Virus record (IMG/VR): IMGVR_UViG_3300020400_000044
Span: 1-22,851 of that record
DNA length: 22,851 bases
Source of the DNA: a virus
Strand: one strand, 5' to 3'
Positions 1,891-14,133 of this stretch are shown here, piece by piece. Position numbers and translations under genes: made by a program. Within the stretch, counting starts at the first letter, position 1. Every line of letters starts with the position of its first letter. Below the pieces are notes generated by a model. That model saw nothing but the letters and a program-made list of their open reading frames with translations, had not been told where the DNA came from and ran no database searches.

Positions 1891-2196
1891 TTAACTAGGG
1901 GGTGTTGGCCAGACTACGTCTTTAAGTGAAGAGTAAGTTTTAGTTATATCTCTTAATTCTTGTCTATAGTTTTTTTGTGCATCAGTTGGTGTTCTATCTG
2001 GCAATACCCACCAATCTGTTTTTGCAAGCATATCATTTCTTGTTTGTCTTAATTGTTCCAACTCCAACATTGGTCTTTGGTTGTCTCTAAATGCTCTTAC
2101 ACTTGCACAATGCGTAGATATTGCTTCTTCTCTTGTACAATCGTGTGCAATCATTGTAAGGTTTATTTCTTCTTCTGTGTAATCGTGTCCTACCAT
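1891..2196 (-). CDS. Tail assembly chaperone-like protein (PF16778 type), 101 aa
   Basis: This small soluble protein has the C-terminal signature shared with two other proteins of the window: RN at residues 53-54, DW at 61-62, YR at 77-78, LRD at 81-83 and the terminal WPTPPS at 96-101. That pattern fits the Phage_tail_APC (PF16778) family, usually found beside tail-fibre genes and thought to help fibre assembly. The N-terminal half is acidic and has no recognised domain. Its ATG overlaps the TAA of the upstream gene in a TAATG junction with only a weak G-rich ribosome site, so translation is probably coupled to that gene. It closes a transcription unit that begins with the S74 fibre at 4926. 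The family call comes from motifs read by eye. Confidence 0.75.
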   Translation of the reverse strand: MVGHDYTEEEINLTMIAHDCTREEAISTHCASVRAFRDNQRPMLELEQLRQTRNDMLAKTDWWVLPDRTPTDAQKNYRQELRDITKTYSSLKDVVWPTPPS

Positions 2197-2741
2197 TAAG
2201 TACCCCAGCTTGATTCTCTTCGGTGATTAGCACCGGAATTTACAGCATGATATGTACTACTATGGTCATGATAATTTCGTGATTCTCCTGTTCCTGCAAA
2301 ACTTATATTTGAAACCTTATGAACTACGACAGTAGTCCATTGTGACCATAATCCATCATTATGAAACCAAACTTGTCCATCTGAATCGAAAGCAAATCTT
2401 GATGTGTTTGCGTGACCATGTCTTTCCTGGCAGAAAAAGTGATAATTTGCTGATTGACTACTCCAGATTATAATAAATACATCAAGAATTGCATATTGAT
2501 TGGTATAATTTAAATCACCTTTTCTATATATAGTCGCCGCATAAAGTTGTTCTTGCCCTTGATTAGGTGAGAATTTGCAAAGTTTGCAAGTTCTTGCATA
2601 GTATGTTCCGCCTCCTGCGTGATAGGTATATAAATTAAGTGTATGTTGAAATGGAAACCCATGGACAGGATTTGCACTAACTAAATCGCTATGGTCATAA
2701 TATCCACCATATTGTCCAACTTTGTAATTACTTAGTGACAT
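2196..2741 (-). CDS. His-rich tip-like structural protein of unknown function, 181 aa
   Basis: I do not recognise a named family. The protein has no fibre repeats and no leader. It is rich in His (13 of 181), Tyr, Gly and aromatic residues, with a CKLC pair near residue 54, two H-x-H triplets (HGH and HDH) and a beta-rich centre (AILDVFIIIW). Composition and the string of aromatic strands resemble the C-terminal tip segments of the fibres at 16016-18376 and 20436-22851, but here the segment stands alone. It overlaps the end of the S74 fibre gene by 14 bases and has the strongest ribosome site in the window (GGAGGA at 2755-2750, 8 bases before ATG). By position it could be a separately made adhesin at the fibre end, comparable in place to T-even gp38; this is inference. 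Confidence 0.6.
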   Translation of the reverse strand: MSLSNYKVGQYGGYYDHSDLVSANPVHGFPFQHTLNLYTYHAGGGTYYARTCKLCKFSPNQGQEQLYAATIYRKGDLNYTNQYAILDVFIIIWSSQSANYHFFCQERHGHANTSRFAFDSDGQVWFHNDGLWSQWTTVVVHKVSNISFAGTGESRNYHDHSSTYHAVNSGANHRRESSWGT

Positions 2742-4926
2742 TTATTTTTTCCTCCAATTTACTTATCTGTTGTTTCAAACTGGATATTTCTTGTAATGCA
2801 TCTTGTAGTGATTTCACAATTACAGGTGTAATTTTTCCGTAATCCATTTGCATCATTTCTTCACTGTCAGCATCTCCGCTTACAGCTTCTGGAATAATAG
2901 ACTGCATTTCTTGTGCAATAAAACCATGTTGTGCAGGTGTAGTTTTATCATTTATCCAAGTGTGTGAAACAGGATTCATAGCCAATATCTTTTCAGTAGC
3001 ATCTTGTATTGGCTTAATATTTTCTTTTAATCGTCTGTCTGATGTAGTAAGATAAGTTGTAGCTGTCGTTGTAGATTCTATTGCACCAACTCTGCTAGTG
3101 CTAGTGCCTTGGAAAAAATCTATCTGTCTCATAGTACCACTACCAGTAGTGTTTGCACAACTTAACATAGCATTACTACTACCACCTGCCCGATAAATTA
3201 CCATGCCACCATTGGATCCAGCATAGGTCGTTGGATCACTAGTACCAATACCAACATTGCCACTGCTTCCTTTAAGGGTCATAAATCTGTCACTAGCTCT
3301 TCCAAAATATATATCTCCCCCTTCATAGTTCCACAAAAACCCATCTTCTTGTGTATCAAGTCCAACGCCAAAACCATCTGAACTTCCAGCTCCAGTGGTT
3401 TGGTTTTGAAATTGTATTTGCGTCTGGTCAGAATCGTTTCTGTACAATACCAATTGACGATTAGGACTATTCGTACCAATACCTACATTACCACCTCTTT
3501 TAATTGTAAAAGTATTAGTTCCTGTAGCATTATTATTTTTGTTCCAAATTTGTAAAGATCCGTCAGCACTAGAGTCATATATACCCCACCCAAAGGTTGA
3601 ACTAGCGATGTCAACATTATCATAAAGTCCTAACCACGGATCTGTACCACCAGGTGTACTATTACCCCTGCCAATACTAGCATAATATCCACCACCTTCG
3701 TAAATATGAAGTGGATGAGCAGGAGCAAGATTTCCTATACTAACATTACCAGAGCTATCTATCCTCATGCGTTCTGTGTTGCTTGTAGCAAATATTATAT
3801 CTTCTGCTTCTCTATGCCAGATTAAAGCACTTTCATTACTATCAATACCTATGCGAAAGCCATCATTGGCAGTAGTTCCTGTTGTAGTGTTAGTAAATAA
3901 AGCATAACTAGCATCACTATCATCTTGATGAACGTGTAAATTATAAGCAGGACTACTTATTCTTATACCTAAATTTAAACTTGAATAAGTTGTTCCTGTA
4001 ACAGTAACACCACTAGATGTTGTTTCTAATTTTTTAACATTGTCGTGGTAAAGTTCTACTGCACCATTTTCTGTTGCAAATAACATTGTTTCATCATTAG
4101 CAGAATTTCTTATATGAACCACACTACCGCAGATACGCAGTTGACCAGTTCCCTCATCTTTAATATGGGAATGATTCCCATTATGACTTATACTTAGATC
4201 ACCTCCAGTACCAAATTGGGCTTTTGCATTGTCAAAAAACTTTATAGCATTGCTTGAGTTATAAAATGCTATATTATAATTATTACCATTAAAAGTTACA
4301 GCCTCTGTAAAATTTGCACCTGTCCCCCTAATTTGTTTATTAAAATTAAAACTTGTTGTTGCGTGTGTATAAGTCATTGTAGCAGTACCATCACTGCCCA
4401 AGTCTACTGTTAGACCACTTCCATCTGCCGTACTGCTATTTGAAGAACCACTTGCTATTATTATATTTTTGTCATCTACTGTGAGTGTTGTTGAGTTAAT
4501 TGTAGTGGTAGTACCATTTACAGTTAGATCACCTGCTATTACCACTGTTCCTGTATTGTCTCCATGTGTTGCTGGATCAATTGTAAAACTGCTAGGACCT
4601 TGCAAACTGCCTGTGGTTGTAATATTGCCTGAAATATCTATAGCACCACCAAATGAGCCACCTTGACTCGCACTTACTGTGTCGTTTATACTGAATATCT
4701 GATGTGCAATTATTGTAATTTCGTCACTTGCACTGGCTCCAACACCTAAAACTACTGTGGTTCCATTGGTTGCTGTATAATCTGAAGGTGTTAAAAGTAT
4801 ACCATTTTGATAGACATCAATATAGCCAACATCATACGTTGCTGAAAATGTGGTCTGACTTCCTGTTGCTACAAAATTATAAGCTCTACGTCTACCTTCA
4901 GTAAGACCTTGTCCTATATATGGCAT
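2728..4926 (-). CDS. Tail fibre with C-terminal peptidase S74 chaperone domain, 732 aa
   Basis: The N-terminus (MPYIGQGLTEGRRRAYNF) leads into a beta module of about 70 residues (SQTTF, then DVYQNGILLTPSDYTATNGT), related to that of the gene at 14135-15598. A VNGTTTTINSTTLTVDD module lies near residues 133-152. The shaft follows, with ERMRIDSSGNVSIGN and two NVGIGT units. From Ser629 the C-terminus is a peptidase S74 domain: SDRRLKENI, then HGFIAQEM, MDYGKITPVIVKSLQ and a terminal coiled coil. In this family the domain trimerises the fibre and then cuts itself off just before the Ser of SDxRLK; both the Ser and the Lys are present, so cleavage is expected at about base 3042. A ribosome site AAGGA lies upstream. 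The gene heads a unit with the His-rich protein and a chaperone-like protein. Confidence 0.88.
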   Translation of the reverse strand: MPYIGQGLTEGRRRAYNFVATGSQTTFSATYDVGYIDVYQNGILLTPSDYTATNGTTVVLGVGASASDEITIIAHQIFSINDTVSASQGGSFGGAIDISGNITTTGSLQGPSSFTIDPATHGDNTGTVVIAGDLTVNGTTTTINSTTLTVDDKNIIIASGSSNSSTADGSGLTVDLGSDGTATMTYTHATTSFNFNKQIRGTGANFTEAVTFNGNNYNIAFYNSSNAIKFFDNAKAQFGTGGDLSISHNGNHSHIKDEGTGQLRICGSVVHIRNSANDETMLFATENGAVELYHDNVKKLETTSSGVTVTGTTYSSLNLGIRISSPAYNLHVHQDDSDASYALFTNTTTGTTANDGFRIGIDSNESALIWHREAEDIIFATSNTERMRIDSSGNVSIGNLAPAHPLHIYEGGGYYASIGRGNSTPGGTDPWLGLYDNVDIASSTFGWGIYDSSADGSLQIWNKNNNATGTNTFTIKRGGNVGIGTNSPNRQLVLYRNDSDQTQIQFQNQTTGAGSSDGFGVGLDTQEDGFLWNYEGGDIYFGRASDRFMTLKGSSGNVGIGTSDPTTYAGSNGGMVIYRAGGSSNAMLSCANTTGSGTMRQIDFFQGTSTSRVGAIESTTTATTYLTTSDRRLKENIKPIQDATEKILAMNPVSHTWINDKTTPAQHGFIAQEMQSIIPEAVSGDADSEEMMQMDYGKITPVIVKSLQDALQEISSLKQQISKLEEKINVTK
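3741..3776. repeat. 36-base repeat shared with 8355..8390
   Basis: These 36 bases inside the 2728-4926 gene are identical to 8355-8390 in the 7276-9300 gene. Both encode the ERMRIDSSGNV shaft motif on the minus strand. A shorter version (about 29 bases) recurs at 8117-8145. Exact identity across different genes suggests recent sharing or gene conversion. Confidence 0.85.
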
Positions 4927-4967: not shown

Positions 4968-6932
4968 TTAAGATTCTAGTGTTTTAATTCTGGTTTCTAG
5001 TGCGTCAATTTTGGTAAGAGCATCTTGCAAACTTTTTACAAGATATGGTGTGAGTCTGCCGTAATCCATGCCTTGAATTACTGGTTCACCATCTTCATCT
5101 ACTTGATCTTTTGTGCCACTTACACAATCAACAACACCCGCTTCTTGTACTTCATGAGCTAAAAAGCCTACATGTTTAAGTCCGTCAAAGTCAGTACCTT
5201 CTTCACTTGTACTTTCGAATTCTACAGGTCTTAATTGTTTTATAATATTATCAGTACTAGATAGATTTACAATATTCTTTTTGATTCTATAATCTGAAGA
5301 TCCTTGATATGTTGTTCCGCTAGTTGTTGATCTTATGTATCCTCGTGCAGAAGTATTTACTGTGAACTGCATCATTCTATCATCATTAGCACCACCGCCT
5401 CCAAAGTTATATCTTTGAATATACATACTTGACCAACCAGAATCACTGTCTGTTCCCATTTCAAGATGTGTTCCCTGACCTGCACCGCCACTGAAGCCTG
5501 CCTGAATTCCTGCTGATATTATTATACCATCACCACTACTGTACAAATTACCTGTTACAGGACTGTTTACATTTGAACTAATAGACAAAGATTTAGCATG
5601 CATTCTACCATTATTTTGTATATTAAGCACATCGTCTCCGTGCGTCCAACTGTAGATATTAAATTGATCTGTTCCGTTACCCGCACCAACTCTGGTCTGC
5701 CATTTCAAACTACCAGCTAAAGAATATCTATAATGCGATTGTCCAACAGCATTTACTTCAACTCCTGTATAATAATAACCACTTCCACTAGTGTTATTAA
5801 TACGCAATCCACAAAAAGGTTCTGCACCCAAAGCTGGATGTACAATATTCAAAGGTGCATTAGGACTAGTCGTACCGATACCAACATTACCAGTTGATCT
5901 TACAACCATTTTATAAGCACCATCAGCATATACGCCAAGAGCCATTTTATCATTGGCACTTGTTGCATCAGTCCTAATAAGTGTACCTGCACCATTAGTG
6001 TTTGTATTATAAATTCTACTTATCCAATCATCATTAGCACTGCCTTCAACATCAAATTTTCTAGCAGGAGTTGCTCCAATACCTACATTACCAGAGCTAT
6101 CCATTTGCATGACTAGATTAGAAAATCCACCTCTGTAAATGTGTAAACCATCATCATCAGTTGTATAAATGTTATATTGTTGTGTTGCACTATTTGTGCC
6201 TCTACTAAATGAAAGAACTCCGCCTTTAGTGCCATTTATATTAAAAGTATTAAAATTGCCACCAATATCAACAGGATCATTAGTACCAAGGCCCATGTTA
6301 CCACTACTATCAATCCTCATGCGTTCAGAATCATTAGTTTGAAACATCATATAGTTAGAACCATGATTATATCTTATAATTCCTACATACTCACCTGCAC
6401 CTGAAGTAGCATCAGAAAAATAAATATTTCCATGATTACTTGTGCCTGACCTTATAGTTATACCTGCTTCTGTAGAATCAGATATAGTTAATTCTGTGCC
6501 TGCTGTATCTCCTATTCCCGGTGTGATGCTACCTAATGTTAAACTTCCTGATGAATGAATCCTCATGCGTTCTGTATTATTAGTAGCAAATGTTGTACTT
6601 GTGTTTTCTCTATTCCACATTGTAGCTTCTTCATTAGAATTAATTCCAATAAGAAGTCCATCACTTATAGCAGTTCCTGTTGTGCTATTTGTAAAATGTA
6701 TTTGGGAAGCAGTGCTATCAGATTGATTAGCTTGTATCATTGAAGTAGGACTAGTTGTGCCAATACCAATTTTACTAACATTTTTAAGAGTTGTGTCACT
6801 GGTATCCAGCATGGTGGTACCACCCATTTGTAAACTTCCATTTACAATATTAAGATGACCATTGGTATCTATACTGACGTCAGGACCACTGTTTGCAATA
6901 TTAGCAATATGTTCTATTTTGAGAGTTGACAT
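4968..6932 (-). CDS. Tail fibre with C-terminal peptidase S74 chaperone domain, 654 aa
   Basis: The start MSTLKIEHIANIANSG resembles the short MSxLKV N-termini of the small structural proteins at 12672-14133. The shaft has about five repeat units, including KIGIGTTSP near residue 56, two ERMRI units, NMGLGTNDP, NVGIGATP and NVGIGTTSP. The C-terminal S74 domain begins at Ser546 (SDYRIKKNI), followed by HVGFLAHEVQEAG, MDYGRLTPYLVKSLQDAL and a coiled-coil end. Ser and Lys of the self-cleavage motif are kept, so a C-terminal piece of about 109 residues should be released. It appears to be a single-gene unit with its own promoter and inverted-repeat leader and an AAGG ribosome site. It differs from the S74 domain at 2728-4926 by a longer acidic insertion (VDEDGEPV), so this is not a recent copy. 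Confidence 0.88.
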   Translation of the reverse strand: MSTLKIEHIANIANSGPDVSIDTNGHLNIVNGSLQMGGTTMLDTSDTTLKNVSKIGIGTTSPTSMIQANQSDSTASQIHFTNSTTGTAISDGLLIGINSNEEATMWNRENTSTTFATNNTERMRIHSSGSLTLGSITPGIGDTAGTELTISDSTEAGITIRSGTSNHGNIYFSDATSGAGEYVGIIRYNHGSNYMMFQTNDSERMRIDSSGNMGLGTNDPVDIGGNFNTFNINGTKGGVLSFSRGTNSATQQYNIYTTDDDGLHIYRGGFSNLVMQMDSSGNVGIGATPARKFDVEGSANDDWISRIYNTNTNGAGTLIRTDATSANDKMALGVYADGAYKMVVRSTGNVGIGTTSPNAPLNIVHPALGAEPFCGLRINNTSGSGYYYTGVEVNAVGQSHYRYSLAGSLKWQTRVGAGNGTDQFNIYSWTHGDDVLNIQNNGRMHAKSLSISSNVNSPVTGNLYSSGDGIIISAGIQAGFSGGAGQGTHLEMGTDSDSGWSSMYIQRYNFGGGGANDDRMMQFTVNTSARGYIRSTTSGTTYQGSSDYRIKKNIVNLSSTDNIIKQLRPVEFESTSEEGTDFDGLKHVGFLAHEVQEAGVVDCVSGTKDQVDEDGEPVIQGMDYGRLTPYLVKSLQDALTKIDALETRIKTLES

Positions 6933-12235: not shown

Positions 12236-12646
12236 TTATGATGGCTTAGTGGGCCACGTAACTGAGCTTTGATCCAACATTCCATCTTTGATTTTTGGAT
12301 CAGCAGACGCTGGTAAATCTCTGAGTGCTTTTCTATAGTTTTTCCAAGCTGTACTCATAGTAACATCACTGTTACCCATCCAATCAGTTTCTGCTAGTTT
12401 TTGATTACGCTCTGCTCGAAGTAAACGCATAGGTTCTTCAGCTATTAGTGCATCTCGTTTGGCTACAACTGCTTCCCAAGTAGTTCCCCATTCTGATTCC
12501 TTTGTACTTTCAATAGCTGAACCATTTGCATCTGCACCTGTTATTTTAGCGTACATAGTTGAGAATTCGTCTTTGTTAGTAGGTTCACCTCTGAGTACCC
12601 ATTCTTTAATACCTAATTCTGTCAATGCTTTTGCAATATCTGTCAT
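12236..12646 (-). CDS. Tail assembly chaperone-like protein (PF16778 type), 136 aa
   Basis: Residues 80-136 carry the same signature as the proteins at 1891 and 15629: RN at 80-81, DW at 88-89, YR at 104-105, LRD at 108-110 and the ending WPTKPS. The N-terminal part (ALTELGIKEWVLRGEPTN, then DEFSTMYAKITG) is a separate mostly helical segment not shared with the other two. The family is associated with tail-fibre loci and thought to aid assembly. Unlike its relatives, this gene has its own late promoter, and an AAAGGA ribosome site, rather than being coupled to a fibre gene, so it may be made in larger amounts or at a different level. It lies directly ahead of the 967-residue gene. Confidence 0.78.
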   Translation of the reverse strand: MTDIAKALTELGIKEWVLRGEPTNKDEFSTMYAKITGADANGSAIESTKESEWGTTWEAVVAKRDALIAEEPMRLLRAERNQKLAETDWMGNSDVTMSTAWKNYRKALRDLPASADPKIKDGMLDQSSVTWPTKPS

Positions 12647-12668
12647 TTGTTTATTCCTTTGTTAAATG

Positions 12669-12676
12669 TATTTATC
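12669..12676 (-). promoter_or_regulatory. T4-type late promoter, GATAAATA, overlapping a stop codon
   Basis: The octamer matches the late consensus at seven of eight positions and lies 22 bases before the ATG at 12646. The stop codon TAA of the upstream gene (12674-12672) is part of the octamer. Confidence 0.6.
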
Positions 12677-13163
12677 CTATTAAATACCCCATACAGTTTG
12701 TAAAAGCAGATGCACCATACACACCATAAGTGCTGGTACTAGTAGACCTTAAATACCATGAAAAAGTATCACCAACTCCCATTTCATAAACTACACATAA
12801 ATGATCCTGATTCCAACTTGCACCTGTAGCAGTTTGATTTCCTTTTGTTATCACAGTACTATTTTTATATCCGTGTAATTGCATATCGCCGGCTGGATTG
12901 CCATGCATCCAATTCATTGCAAAAAAGTATACACCAGCAATCGGACAAGTAAAATCTCCTGTACTTGCATTAAAATTACTTCCTATATCATGTACAGTAG
13001 TCCAGCTTCCTATTTTCACTGTAGCATTTGTTTCTGCCAAATGTCCATTTTTATTTGCATAAAACGAAGGTCTAGCTGGAGTTGTAATTCTACCTGCACT
13101 ATCAATAGTCATCGCTGTAGTGTCATTAGTGTGTTGTAGCTGTTGAACTTTTAATACGCTCAT
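12672..13163 (-). CDS. Small C1q-like structural protein, 163 aa
   Basis: The short N-terminus MSVLKVQQLQ and TIDSAGRITTPARPSF (about residues 19-34) lead straight into a C1q/TNF-like domain: NFNASTGDFTCPIAGVYFF at about 63-81 and the ending CMGYLIG. The corresponding segment in the 18381-20156 fibre is FNASNGRFTAPVAGTYLF, so this looks like the same type of tip without a shaft. C1q-like domains form trimers and bind ligands, so this may be a decoration or adhesin bound to the tail; the target is unknown. The start overlaps the upstream stop as ATGA, with a GGAG ribosome site inside that gene's last codons. It is the fourth gene of the unit that begins at 15598. Confidence 0.78.
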   Translation of the reverse strand: MSVLKVQQLQHTNDTTAMTIDSAGRITTPARPSFYANKNGHLAETNATVKIGSWTTVHDIGSNFNASTGDFTCPIAGVYFFAMNWMHGNPAGDMQLHGYKNSTVITKGNQTATGASWNQDHLCVVYEMGVGDTFSWYLRSTSTSTYGVYGASAFTNCMGYLIG

Positions 13164-13177
13164 TGTGCAATCTCCAT
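13160..13177 (-). promoter_or_regulatory. Ribosome site embedded in the last codons of the upstream gene
   Basis: The 18 bases ATGGAGATTGCACAATGA encode MEIAQ-stop of one gene and supply GGAG and the ATG for the next. The same 18 bases occur at 13630-13647. Confidence 0.75.
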
Positions 13178-13633
13178 CGCTATAAATGTTGCTGTGTTTG
13201 CAATACCTGCCTGATCATTAAATCTCGCTCGGTTTCCATTTATCTCTATTGTGTAAGTTAAGGTAGATGTACTATTATGAGTAGTATCAAAGAAAGCTGT
13301 AACCCAACTCAGGGTGTTCCAAGCGCCATCTTCTGTATAACCCTGACCATCGTTAGTCATAATTACAGACCCGTTTCTTTTTATTCTTAATCCCCTACTG
13401 TAAGGGCTTCCAGCACTGTAGTGCCAGCCTGCGGCAAAGTTTTGTAGAAGTATTTGACTGTTAGCAAATTTTGGTGTTATCGCAAGACTATGACCAACAT
13501 CTGAATAACTGCTTGATACTACTTGTATATTTGAAGTAATAATAGATTTTGTTATCTGTATGATGTGACCGGGAATATGTACACCATGATTAGAACTTTT
13601 TTCCTCAAGATTATCAACATACAAAGTACTCAT
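13160..13633 (-). CDS. Small virion structural-like protein ending in MEIAQ, 157 aa
   Basis: I do not recognise a named family, but this is clearly a relative of the gene just upstream. Both start with a short M-x-x-L-x-V-D segment, then a GHxIQ motif (here IPGHIIQITKS), a SLAITPKFANSQI segment matching SFTPKFSDSI, a series of beta strands and the ending MEIAQ. No signal peptide, membrane segment or catalytic motif is visible. Such short beta-rich proteins stand near fibre genes in marine phages and are usually taken as structural. The start overlaps the previous stop as ATGA, and the ribosome site lies in that gene's last codons. It may bind the same scaffold as the other MSxLKV-type proteins. 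Confidence 0.72.
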   Translation of the reverse strand: MSTLYVDNLEEKSSNHGVHIPGHIIQITKSIITSNIQVVSSSYSDVGHSLAITPKFANSQILLQNFAAGWHYSAGSPYSRGLRIKRNGSVIMTNDGQGYTEDGAWNTLSWVTAFFDTTHNSTSTLTYTIEINGNRARFNDQAGIANTATFIAMEIAQ

Positions 13634-13647
13634 TGTGCAATCTCCAT
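13630..13647 (-). promoter_or_regulatory. Ribosome site embedded in the last codons of the upstream gene
   Basis: The 18 bases encoding MEIAQ-stop also contain GGAG, 8 bases before the overlapping ATG of the next gene. They are base-for-base identical to 13160-13177. Confidence 0.75.
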
Positions 13648-14133
13648 TATAGTCATATATGACGGGTCACCATAATTGTTTACTCTTGCAGTACCATTTG
13701 AATTACTAGGTTTGAACACAACTGAATAACTTCTTGCACTGGTACTACCAGCACTTCCGTACCATTGCATTGTGTGTTGACTAATATTTTGTGAATTGTC
13801 GCTACTGTGATAATCAGTGTATTGACTATCATAAAGAACTGTTGAATCCTGTTTAATATTGTAACTTATACCCAAATCACTGTAATTGTAATGCTCACCT
13901 GCTATAGTTGTTATCAGCCATATTATACTGTCTGAAAATTTAGGTGTGAAACTTTTACTCATACCAAATGATTGAAAAGTACTTCCGCTATATGTTACTA
14001 CTGTTGCACTACTATGAAATACAGTTTGAATTACATGACCAGCTGGCAGTTTTAAATTGGTTACGCTACTTATATCAACTGCGGTTGCTGTAGTTGCGCC
14101 TTGTACTGTATCTACTTTTAATATACTTGCCAT
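13630..14133 (-). CDS. Small virion structural-like protein ending in MEIAQ, 167 aa
   Basis: This is the first of two tandem relatives. The N-terminus MASILKVDTVQGATTATAVD resembles the MSxLKV starts of neighbours. It is followed by LKLPAGHVIQTVFHSS, SFTPKFSDSIIWLITT and a Tyr/Ser-rich beta region, and ends in MTIMEIAQ. No enzyme motif is seen. The gene starts one base after the stop of the fibre gene with no clear ribosome site, so translation is probably by coupling. A structural role in the tail or fibre is likely from its position; the precise part is unknown. Confidence 0.72.
   Translation of the reverse strand: MASILKVDTVQGATTATAVDISSVTNLKLPAGHVIQTVFHSSATVVTYSGSTFQSFGMSKSFTPKFSDSIIWLITTIAGEHYNYSDLGISYNIKQDSTVLYDSQYTDYHSSDNSQNISQHTMQWYGSAGSTSARSYSVVFKPSNSNGTARVNNYGDPSYMTIMEIAQ

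Follow-up and report, generated by a model that had tools for sequence, protein, structure and literature searches.

A small protein encoded between a putatively self-cleaving tail fibre and a chaperone in a marine phage may be an exchangeable fibre tip

The DNA analyzed here, referred to as the window, is the entire 22,851-base record IMGVR_UViG_3300020400_000044 of IMG/VR, which comes from a marine virus of bacteria and is probably a genome fragment. Long fibre genes on the minus strand fill nearly all of the window (1 to 22851), and two of them have S74 ends. One of these two S74 fibre genes is the first member of a cassette in which it is followed, on the same strand, by the gene for a free-standing protein, here designated T181, and then by a gene for an APC chaperone (Table 1). 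The T181 gene overlaps the end of the fibre gene by 14 bases (2728 to 2741), in agreement with the sequence-only reading of this DNA, and shares one base with the chaperone gene, whose recognition as a third cassette member is new relative to that reading. The second S74 fibre gene of the window (4968 to 6932) is followed by a large open reading frame (ORF), with no small protein behind it. Elsewhere in the window (12236 to 14133), three consecutive free-standing ORFs of 157 to 167 amino acids have N-terminal starts that are somewhat alike, and an APC chaperone gene follows the last of them.

Table 1. Coordinates of the cassette features in the window
Feature	Position	Strand	Basis
732-aa tail fibre gene with a C-terminal Peptidase_S74 intramolecular chaperone	2728..4926	-	PF13884; PHROG tail fibre families
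S74 domain of the fibre; predicted self-cleavage site TT^SDRRLK	2728..3042	-	PF13884 match 2881-3042; alignment to 6f45_A
Shine-Dalgarno GGAGG of T181	2751..2755	-	Sequence; within the last fibre codons
T181, 181-aa free-standing protein, proposed fibre tip	2196..2741	-	ORF, two homologues, dN/dS
101-aa Phage_tail_APC chaperone	1891..2196	-	PF16778

The T181 ORF has 181 codons and an ATG start, and its ribosome-binding site had been called the best of the window. This was borne out by the predicted duplex energy of the GGAGG sequence (-9.3 kcal/mol), which ranked first among 17 gene starts (a 5'-open gene without a start at the end of the window being left out) and was followed by -6.4 kcal/mol. 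The same GGAGG doubles as part of the Leu-Glu-Glu codons among the last residues of the fibre. Since the site reads GAGG in both T181 homologues found (see below), its strength is not conserved. A frameshift fusion of the fibre and T181 was also considered and set aside by eye; a TAA codon immediately precedes the T181 ATG in the T181 frame, which makes stop-start coupling the simpler explanation. The dN/dS values of T181 with respect to its two homologues, to which it is 87% and 80% identical, are 0.19 and 0.23, and T181 is therefore counted, on comparative sequence grounds, as a real protein under purifying selection and more than a chance ORF. T181 of the window has high contents of histidine (7.2%) and of tyrosine plus phenylalanine (13.8%), and its first tryptophan is residue 93.

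The C terminus of the preceding fibre matched PF13884 (Peptidase_S74) with 61.9 bits (cut-off, 22) and keeps the S-D-R-R-L-K motif, with Ser629 (codon 3042 to 3040) and Lys634 five residues apart. We take these two residues to be the catalytic pair of the S74 domain, and the fibre is predicted from this motif to cleave itself just before Ser629. The best PDB match of the S74 end was chain 6f45_A, the distal subunit gp37 of the S16 long tail fibre (E value, 2.8e-5), in which SDRRIK is aligned to SDRRLK; S16 does not stand out here, since a second S74-type fibre, 8jov, is nearly equal at 4.1e-5. The S74 end of S16 is described as autocleaved at DLNVS^SDRRIKK, which exposes the docking surface for gp38 (PMC7917993). 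The residues ahead of the predicted cleavage site in the window are TTYLTT, and the marine fibre ends compared here are mutually alike at this place, mostly reading TTY.TT^SD.

T181 itself has no recognizable family. Its best matches were at an E value of 0.084 in Pfam and 0.056 in the PHROGs, neither identifying a known family, and searches yielded nothing at 0.1 in NCBIfam and nothing among PDB chains at E values up to 10. No match was obtained by tblastn against plasmids or, at an E value of 0.01, against 50,697 phage records, where raising the threshold to 10 gave two matches with E values of 2 and 3. Degenerate-pattern scans of IMG/VR retrieved two homologues only, L001 (87% identical) and L002 (80%), with one T181 copy on each contig; a scan of genome_contigs retrieved none, and the N-terminal half of the chaperone, used there as bait for more T181 genes, also found none. 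AlphaFold2 modelling with the three sequences in two input orders gave a pLDDT of 30.6 both times and no confident fold. The sequence-only reading had described T181 as looking like a fibre tip. The cassette context favours this description, the family and PDB searches and the structure models add nothing to it, and it is kept here as a proposal. That reading had also suggested looking for versions of T181 fused to fibres in related phages, and none emerged from the tblastn and pattern searches above or from the following, all of limited reach: (i) hmmsearch of 4462 ORFs with a three-sequence profile of little reach, which found only the three T181 copies; (ii) phmmer and BLAST in an enlarged locus set, which found nothing past these copies; and (iii) hhalign comparison with 268 clusters made from ORFs and C termini, where the best non-self probability was 3.25% with the same kind of profile.

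In all three viruses in which T181 was found (the window, L001, and L002), its gene sits between an S74 fibre gene and an APC gene, and homologues away from any fibre gene, which would have spoken against the tip proposal, were not seen; both homologues follow an S74 fibre. L001 lies on a 124.7-kb contig with a T4-type portal (Portal_T4; E value, 4e-114). The 42-kb contig of L002 has no Portal_T4 match, and near its cassette a gp6-like head-tail connector was weakly matched (PF05135; 24.5 bits; cut-off, 21.2). The window and L001 are 92% identical in the S74 end, 87% in T181, 72% in the APC protein, and 47% in the shaft; as the S74 end, T181, and the APC protein all stayed together, this virus cannot separate the partners of T181. 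Between the window and L002, identity is 59% in the S74 end, 80% in T181, and 74% in the chaperone (82% in its N-terminal half), and dS is 0.74 for T181, 0.73 for the APC gene, and 1.59 for the S74 domain. The S74 fibre of L002 is only 200 amino acids long, of which ~100 residues would be left after cleavage.

The chaperone of the window matched PF16778 with 39.8 bits (cut-off, 26.6). Its first 45 residues (N-half) are 80% to 84% identical among the window, L001, and L002, and the remainder (C-half) is 62% to 67% identical. Among 184 APC-matching ORFs of the compared loci, into which the best 80 of the 216 chaperone relatives from the scan had been taken, the T181-type N-half of ~45 amino acids occurred only in the three T181 cassettes. 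A further locus, L008, shares with the window an S74 end (81% identity; retrieved as L167 from the same contig) and a chaperone C-half (77%), but its small protein of 177 amino acids is unrelated to T181 and its chaperone N-half gave no usable alignment (3 identities over 13 residues). The small protein of L008 is instead similar to that of L088 (28%; E value, 5e-6), and these two loci are also alike in the chaperone N-half (41%). Thus, since L002 exchanges the S74 end and L008 exchanges the small protein together with the N-half, the N-half follows T181 and not the fibre in these comparisons, having been co-inherited more with the former than with the latter.

A similar trend was seen among 113 distinct APC proteins. 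In pairs with 70% to 90% identity in the C-half, the proteins encoded upstream were similar in 109 of 348 pairs with similar N-halves and in only 7 of 450 pairs with different N-halves. The trend has the same direction in two lower C-half bins, the pairs not being independent of each other, and in 239 of the 348 pairs with similar N-halves the upstream proteins are dissimilar nonetheless. In the description given by PMC9608196, the chaperone of phage Pam3 is built of modules; the fibre is bound by its N-terminal domain, which lacks conservation, and its C-terminal domain is conserved. Given this precedent, the co-inheritance of the N-half, and the exchanges described above, T181 is the simplest client for the APC chaperone of the cassette, and we regard this pairing, deduced from sequence comparison, as very probable.

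Small proteins behind S74 ends were surveyed in 189 records, the window plus 188 fetched loci, several of which share a contig; these records contained 34 distinct S74-ended frames. A script assigned the neighbours of these ends as a small ORF and then an APC gene (6), a small ORF without an APC gene (14), a large ORF (12), or cut (2). Inspection reassigned L171 and Roseobacter phage CRP-212, giving 8 of 34 with a small ORF and then an APC gene and 12 of 34 with a small ORF alone; the former fraction is not a natural frequency, the loci having been picked by similarity to parts of the cassette (best 80 of 216 and best 80 of 249). As a point against a mounted tip, S74 fibres need not be accompanied by a separate one, as 12 of the 34 ends precede a large ORF and another 12 precede small ORFs with no recognized APC gene next to them. 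We also considered whether S74 ends and directly following APC genes exclude each other. The combination was found in 0 of 34 cases, a count that skipped 21 ORFs near locus ends, but in loci fetched by the fibre N terminus the comparison was 0/7 versus 6/160 (Fisher p = 1), and the idea was dropped.

The eight cases comprise the T181 family (three viruses), the L008/L088 family (two), and one each in L168, L171, and CRP-212. The ORF of L171 has 78 codons for amino acids, and its chaperone, cut by the end of the stretch, was recognized by BLAST only (E value, 1e-6). CRP-212 is the complete genome of a cultured phage with the host Rhodobacteraceae bacterium FZCC0040; behind its S74 fibre gene lies a 134-amino-acid ORF that the neighbour rule of the script had missed, being misled by an over-long ORF start. 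This ORF is intact and is unannotated in the deposit (L179, 5360 to 5764; MZ892988.1, complement of 29482 to 29886), between the S74 fibre and chaperone genes. Two other phages have small ORFs at this place: (i) in Roseobacter phage CRP-235 (L180, 4348 to 5033), the S74 fibre gene is succeeded by a 113-amino-acid ORF, and the protein after that fails the APC profile; and (ii) in the cyanophage Synechococcus phage S-H34 (L196, 2878 to 3426), a 182-amino-acid ORF shares one base with the end of an S74 fibre gene, and the gene after it, of 389 codons with its stop, carries the annotation hypothetical protein.

The small proteins that occupy this slot resemble little else in the searches made with them, all of which rest on single- or few-sequence profiles, so that their negative outcomes are weak. 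In tblastn searches of the phage records, the L088 and L168 small proteins gave no match and the CRP-212 one retrieved only itself, and pattern scans with the L008 and CRP-212 proteins returned the query or nothing. In hhalign comparisons of five small-protein sets with the 268 clusters minus those made of a single short ORF, only the sets themselves were retrieved, and the best other probability was 8.6%. No N-terminal attachment segment shared across the families was identified, although the marine fibre ends are alike. This counts against docking at this place, since proteins that use the same dock would be expected to carry the same plug.

The arrangement of the cassette recalls gp38, and cutting a fibre end and then capping it with a separate adhesin is, according to the descriptions available, established in T2/S16-type phages. 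The sequence-only reading had drawn a parallel with the gp38 of T-even phages without a sequence relation. The parallel holds for the arrangement, an S74 fibre and then a free-standing protein, and for the missing relation, but the right model is the T2/S16 type and not all T-even phages; the gp38 of T4 itself is described as a chaperone. In the S16-type complex, one gp38 per gp37 trimer is reported to be held by three conserved tryptophans (PMC6851490). The records of T2, Klebsiella phage Roth21, and Escherichia phage LF82-7 have an S74 fibre gene, a gene for a free-standing protein, and then a holin gene. As positive controls, the gp38 proteins of T2 and Roth21 matched Gp38_N with 61.7 and 83.4 bits, and the LF82-7 protein is 45% identical to T2 gp38; in these proteins the N-terminal plug is conserved and the rest is variable.

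T181 shares with the T2/S16-type gp38 (PDB 6F45) its small size and its place immediately after a fibre whose S74 end can be cleaved (cleavage being predicted here from the motif), and its length is close to that of the Roth21 gp38 (L190, 2343 to 2882), whose 179 amino acids form a Gp38_N domain and a short body that, unlike T2 gp38, is not glycine-rich. However, T181 has no BLAST similarity to gp38 (PF21721 and PF05268) and, at E values up to 1, no Pfam match to Gp38_N, the N-terminal attachment domain marked by conserved tryptophans (the first tryptophan of T181 being residue 93), and it is not glycine-rich (8.8% glycine and 2 GG runs, versus 22.5% and 11 in T2 gp38 and 12.3% and 2 in Roth21 gp38), a property that is not decisive for membership, as Roth21 gp38 also lacks it. 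The fibres also differ, ending in TTYLTT^SD in the window and in NVYIR^SD, NVEIR^SD, and DVYVR^SD in the T-even types. T181 overlaps its fibre gene by 14 bases, whereas gaps of 30 and 36 bases precede gp38 in T2 and Roth21, and it is followed by its own chaperone gene, whereas gp38 is followed by a holin gene. By analogy, T181 would work like gp38 while standing outside the gp38 family.

Two other known systems are comparable in part. In Tfa-type pairs (Mu, Pam3 gp24/gp25, and Alteromonas phage V22 gp26/gp27), the chaperone gene also lies right behind the gene of the protein served, and Pam3 gp25 offers the same division into a variable fibre-binding N-terminal domain and a conserved C-terminal domain, as described (PMC9608196). 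In the cassette, however, the client would be a shaftless tip after a fibre with its own intramolecular chaperone, and the N-half has only ~45 amino acids. In the branched T5-like phage DT57C, a separate receptor-binding protein, LtfB, is likewise encoded with an S74 fibre, LtfA, and is described as held in the virion through it, but LtfB, itself a complete fibre ending in an S74 domain of its own, is believed to attach to LtfA via its N terminus (PMC4728585). In the literature searched, outside of which lie subscription papers and preprints, no description was found of an S74 fibre, a free-standing tip, and an APC chaperone together in marine phages.

On this evidence we propose, with a probability of roughly 0.6, that T181 is an exchangeable host-recognizing tip, or tip module, that has its own chaperone and is mounted on a self-cleaved fibre. 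The S74 domain would fold the shaft and then cut itself off before Ser629, leaving the cleaved fibre without a knob. The APC chaperone would help its putative client T181 to fold, and T181 would then complete the fibre and thus be carried in the virion. Docking of T181 on the cleaved end itself, argued from the gp38 analogy, is slightly favoured over any other seat. T181 and the chaperone N-half would be inherited jointly and swapped as a unit behind different S74 fibres. A further guess is that T181 is trimeric, since Pam3 gp25, a described fibre chaperone, acts on a trimer.

T181 and its chaperone could also constitute a short knob of their own that is attached elsewhere, to the baseplate or another fibre of the window, the S74 site being a convenient insertion place. 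This would accord with the other free-standing ORFs of 157 to 167 amino acids at 12236 to 14133, with an APC gene behind the last one, with the lack of an attachment segment common to the small proteins of the S74 slot, and with the inheritance of T181 and the APC gene apart from the S74 end in the comparison with L002. We nevertheless consider it rather unlikely: an S74 end immediately precedes all three T181 genes, as well as the genes of unrelated small proteins in five other viruses, and the ORFs at 12236 to 14133 begin with a MS(V/T/I)L.V-type sequence that is not clearly present in T181 (a weak argument, made by eye).

A role of T181 as an accessory fibre assembly factor outside the virion would fit its place between fibre and chaperone genes, Tfa-type factors being described directly behind fibre genes, but the intramolecular chaperone and the APC chaperone are already there, and T181 resembles no chaperone family in Pfam, PHROGs, or NCBIfam, which makes such a role quite improbable. 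The sequence-only reading had offered, as its own alternative, that T181 is a tip that stayed behind after an S74 end had replaced the original end of the fibre. A fibre that once ended in T181 is a plausible origin in so far as 38 of the 124 distinct APC genes preceded by an ORF come after one of fibre size that lacks S74, and a fused fibre could have been split. As a description of the present protein, however, the relic is highly improbable and is not supported, since T181 has its own start and ribosome site, is under purifying selection (dN/dS, 0.19 and 0.23), and is preserved in a conserved cassette in three viruses with different shafts, the tip and chaperone moving together, with no fused homologue found in the searches of limited reach described above.

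If T181 is indeed such a mounted tip, the gp38 plan of cutting a fibre and mounting a separate adhesin would be a general design that arose on more than one occasion, and its marine version would have a dedicated chaperone that makes the receptor-binding tip exchangeable while the fibre is left untouched. More tentatively, and with slightly less than even confidence, marine phages may possess a gp38-independent plug-in tip system in which an S74-matured shaft receives an APC-matured tip on the fresh cut, the tip and the matching chaperone half being swapped as one cassette between unrelated viruses; five tip families with no detectable mutual similarity, the unannotated one of CRP-212 among them, would occupy the slot. 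If T181 is a mounted tip, searching the interval flanked by an S74 end and an APC gene would serve as a sequence rule for finding receptor-binding proteins missed by annotation, and CRP-212 is a cultured test case.
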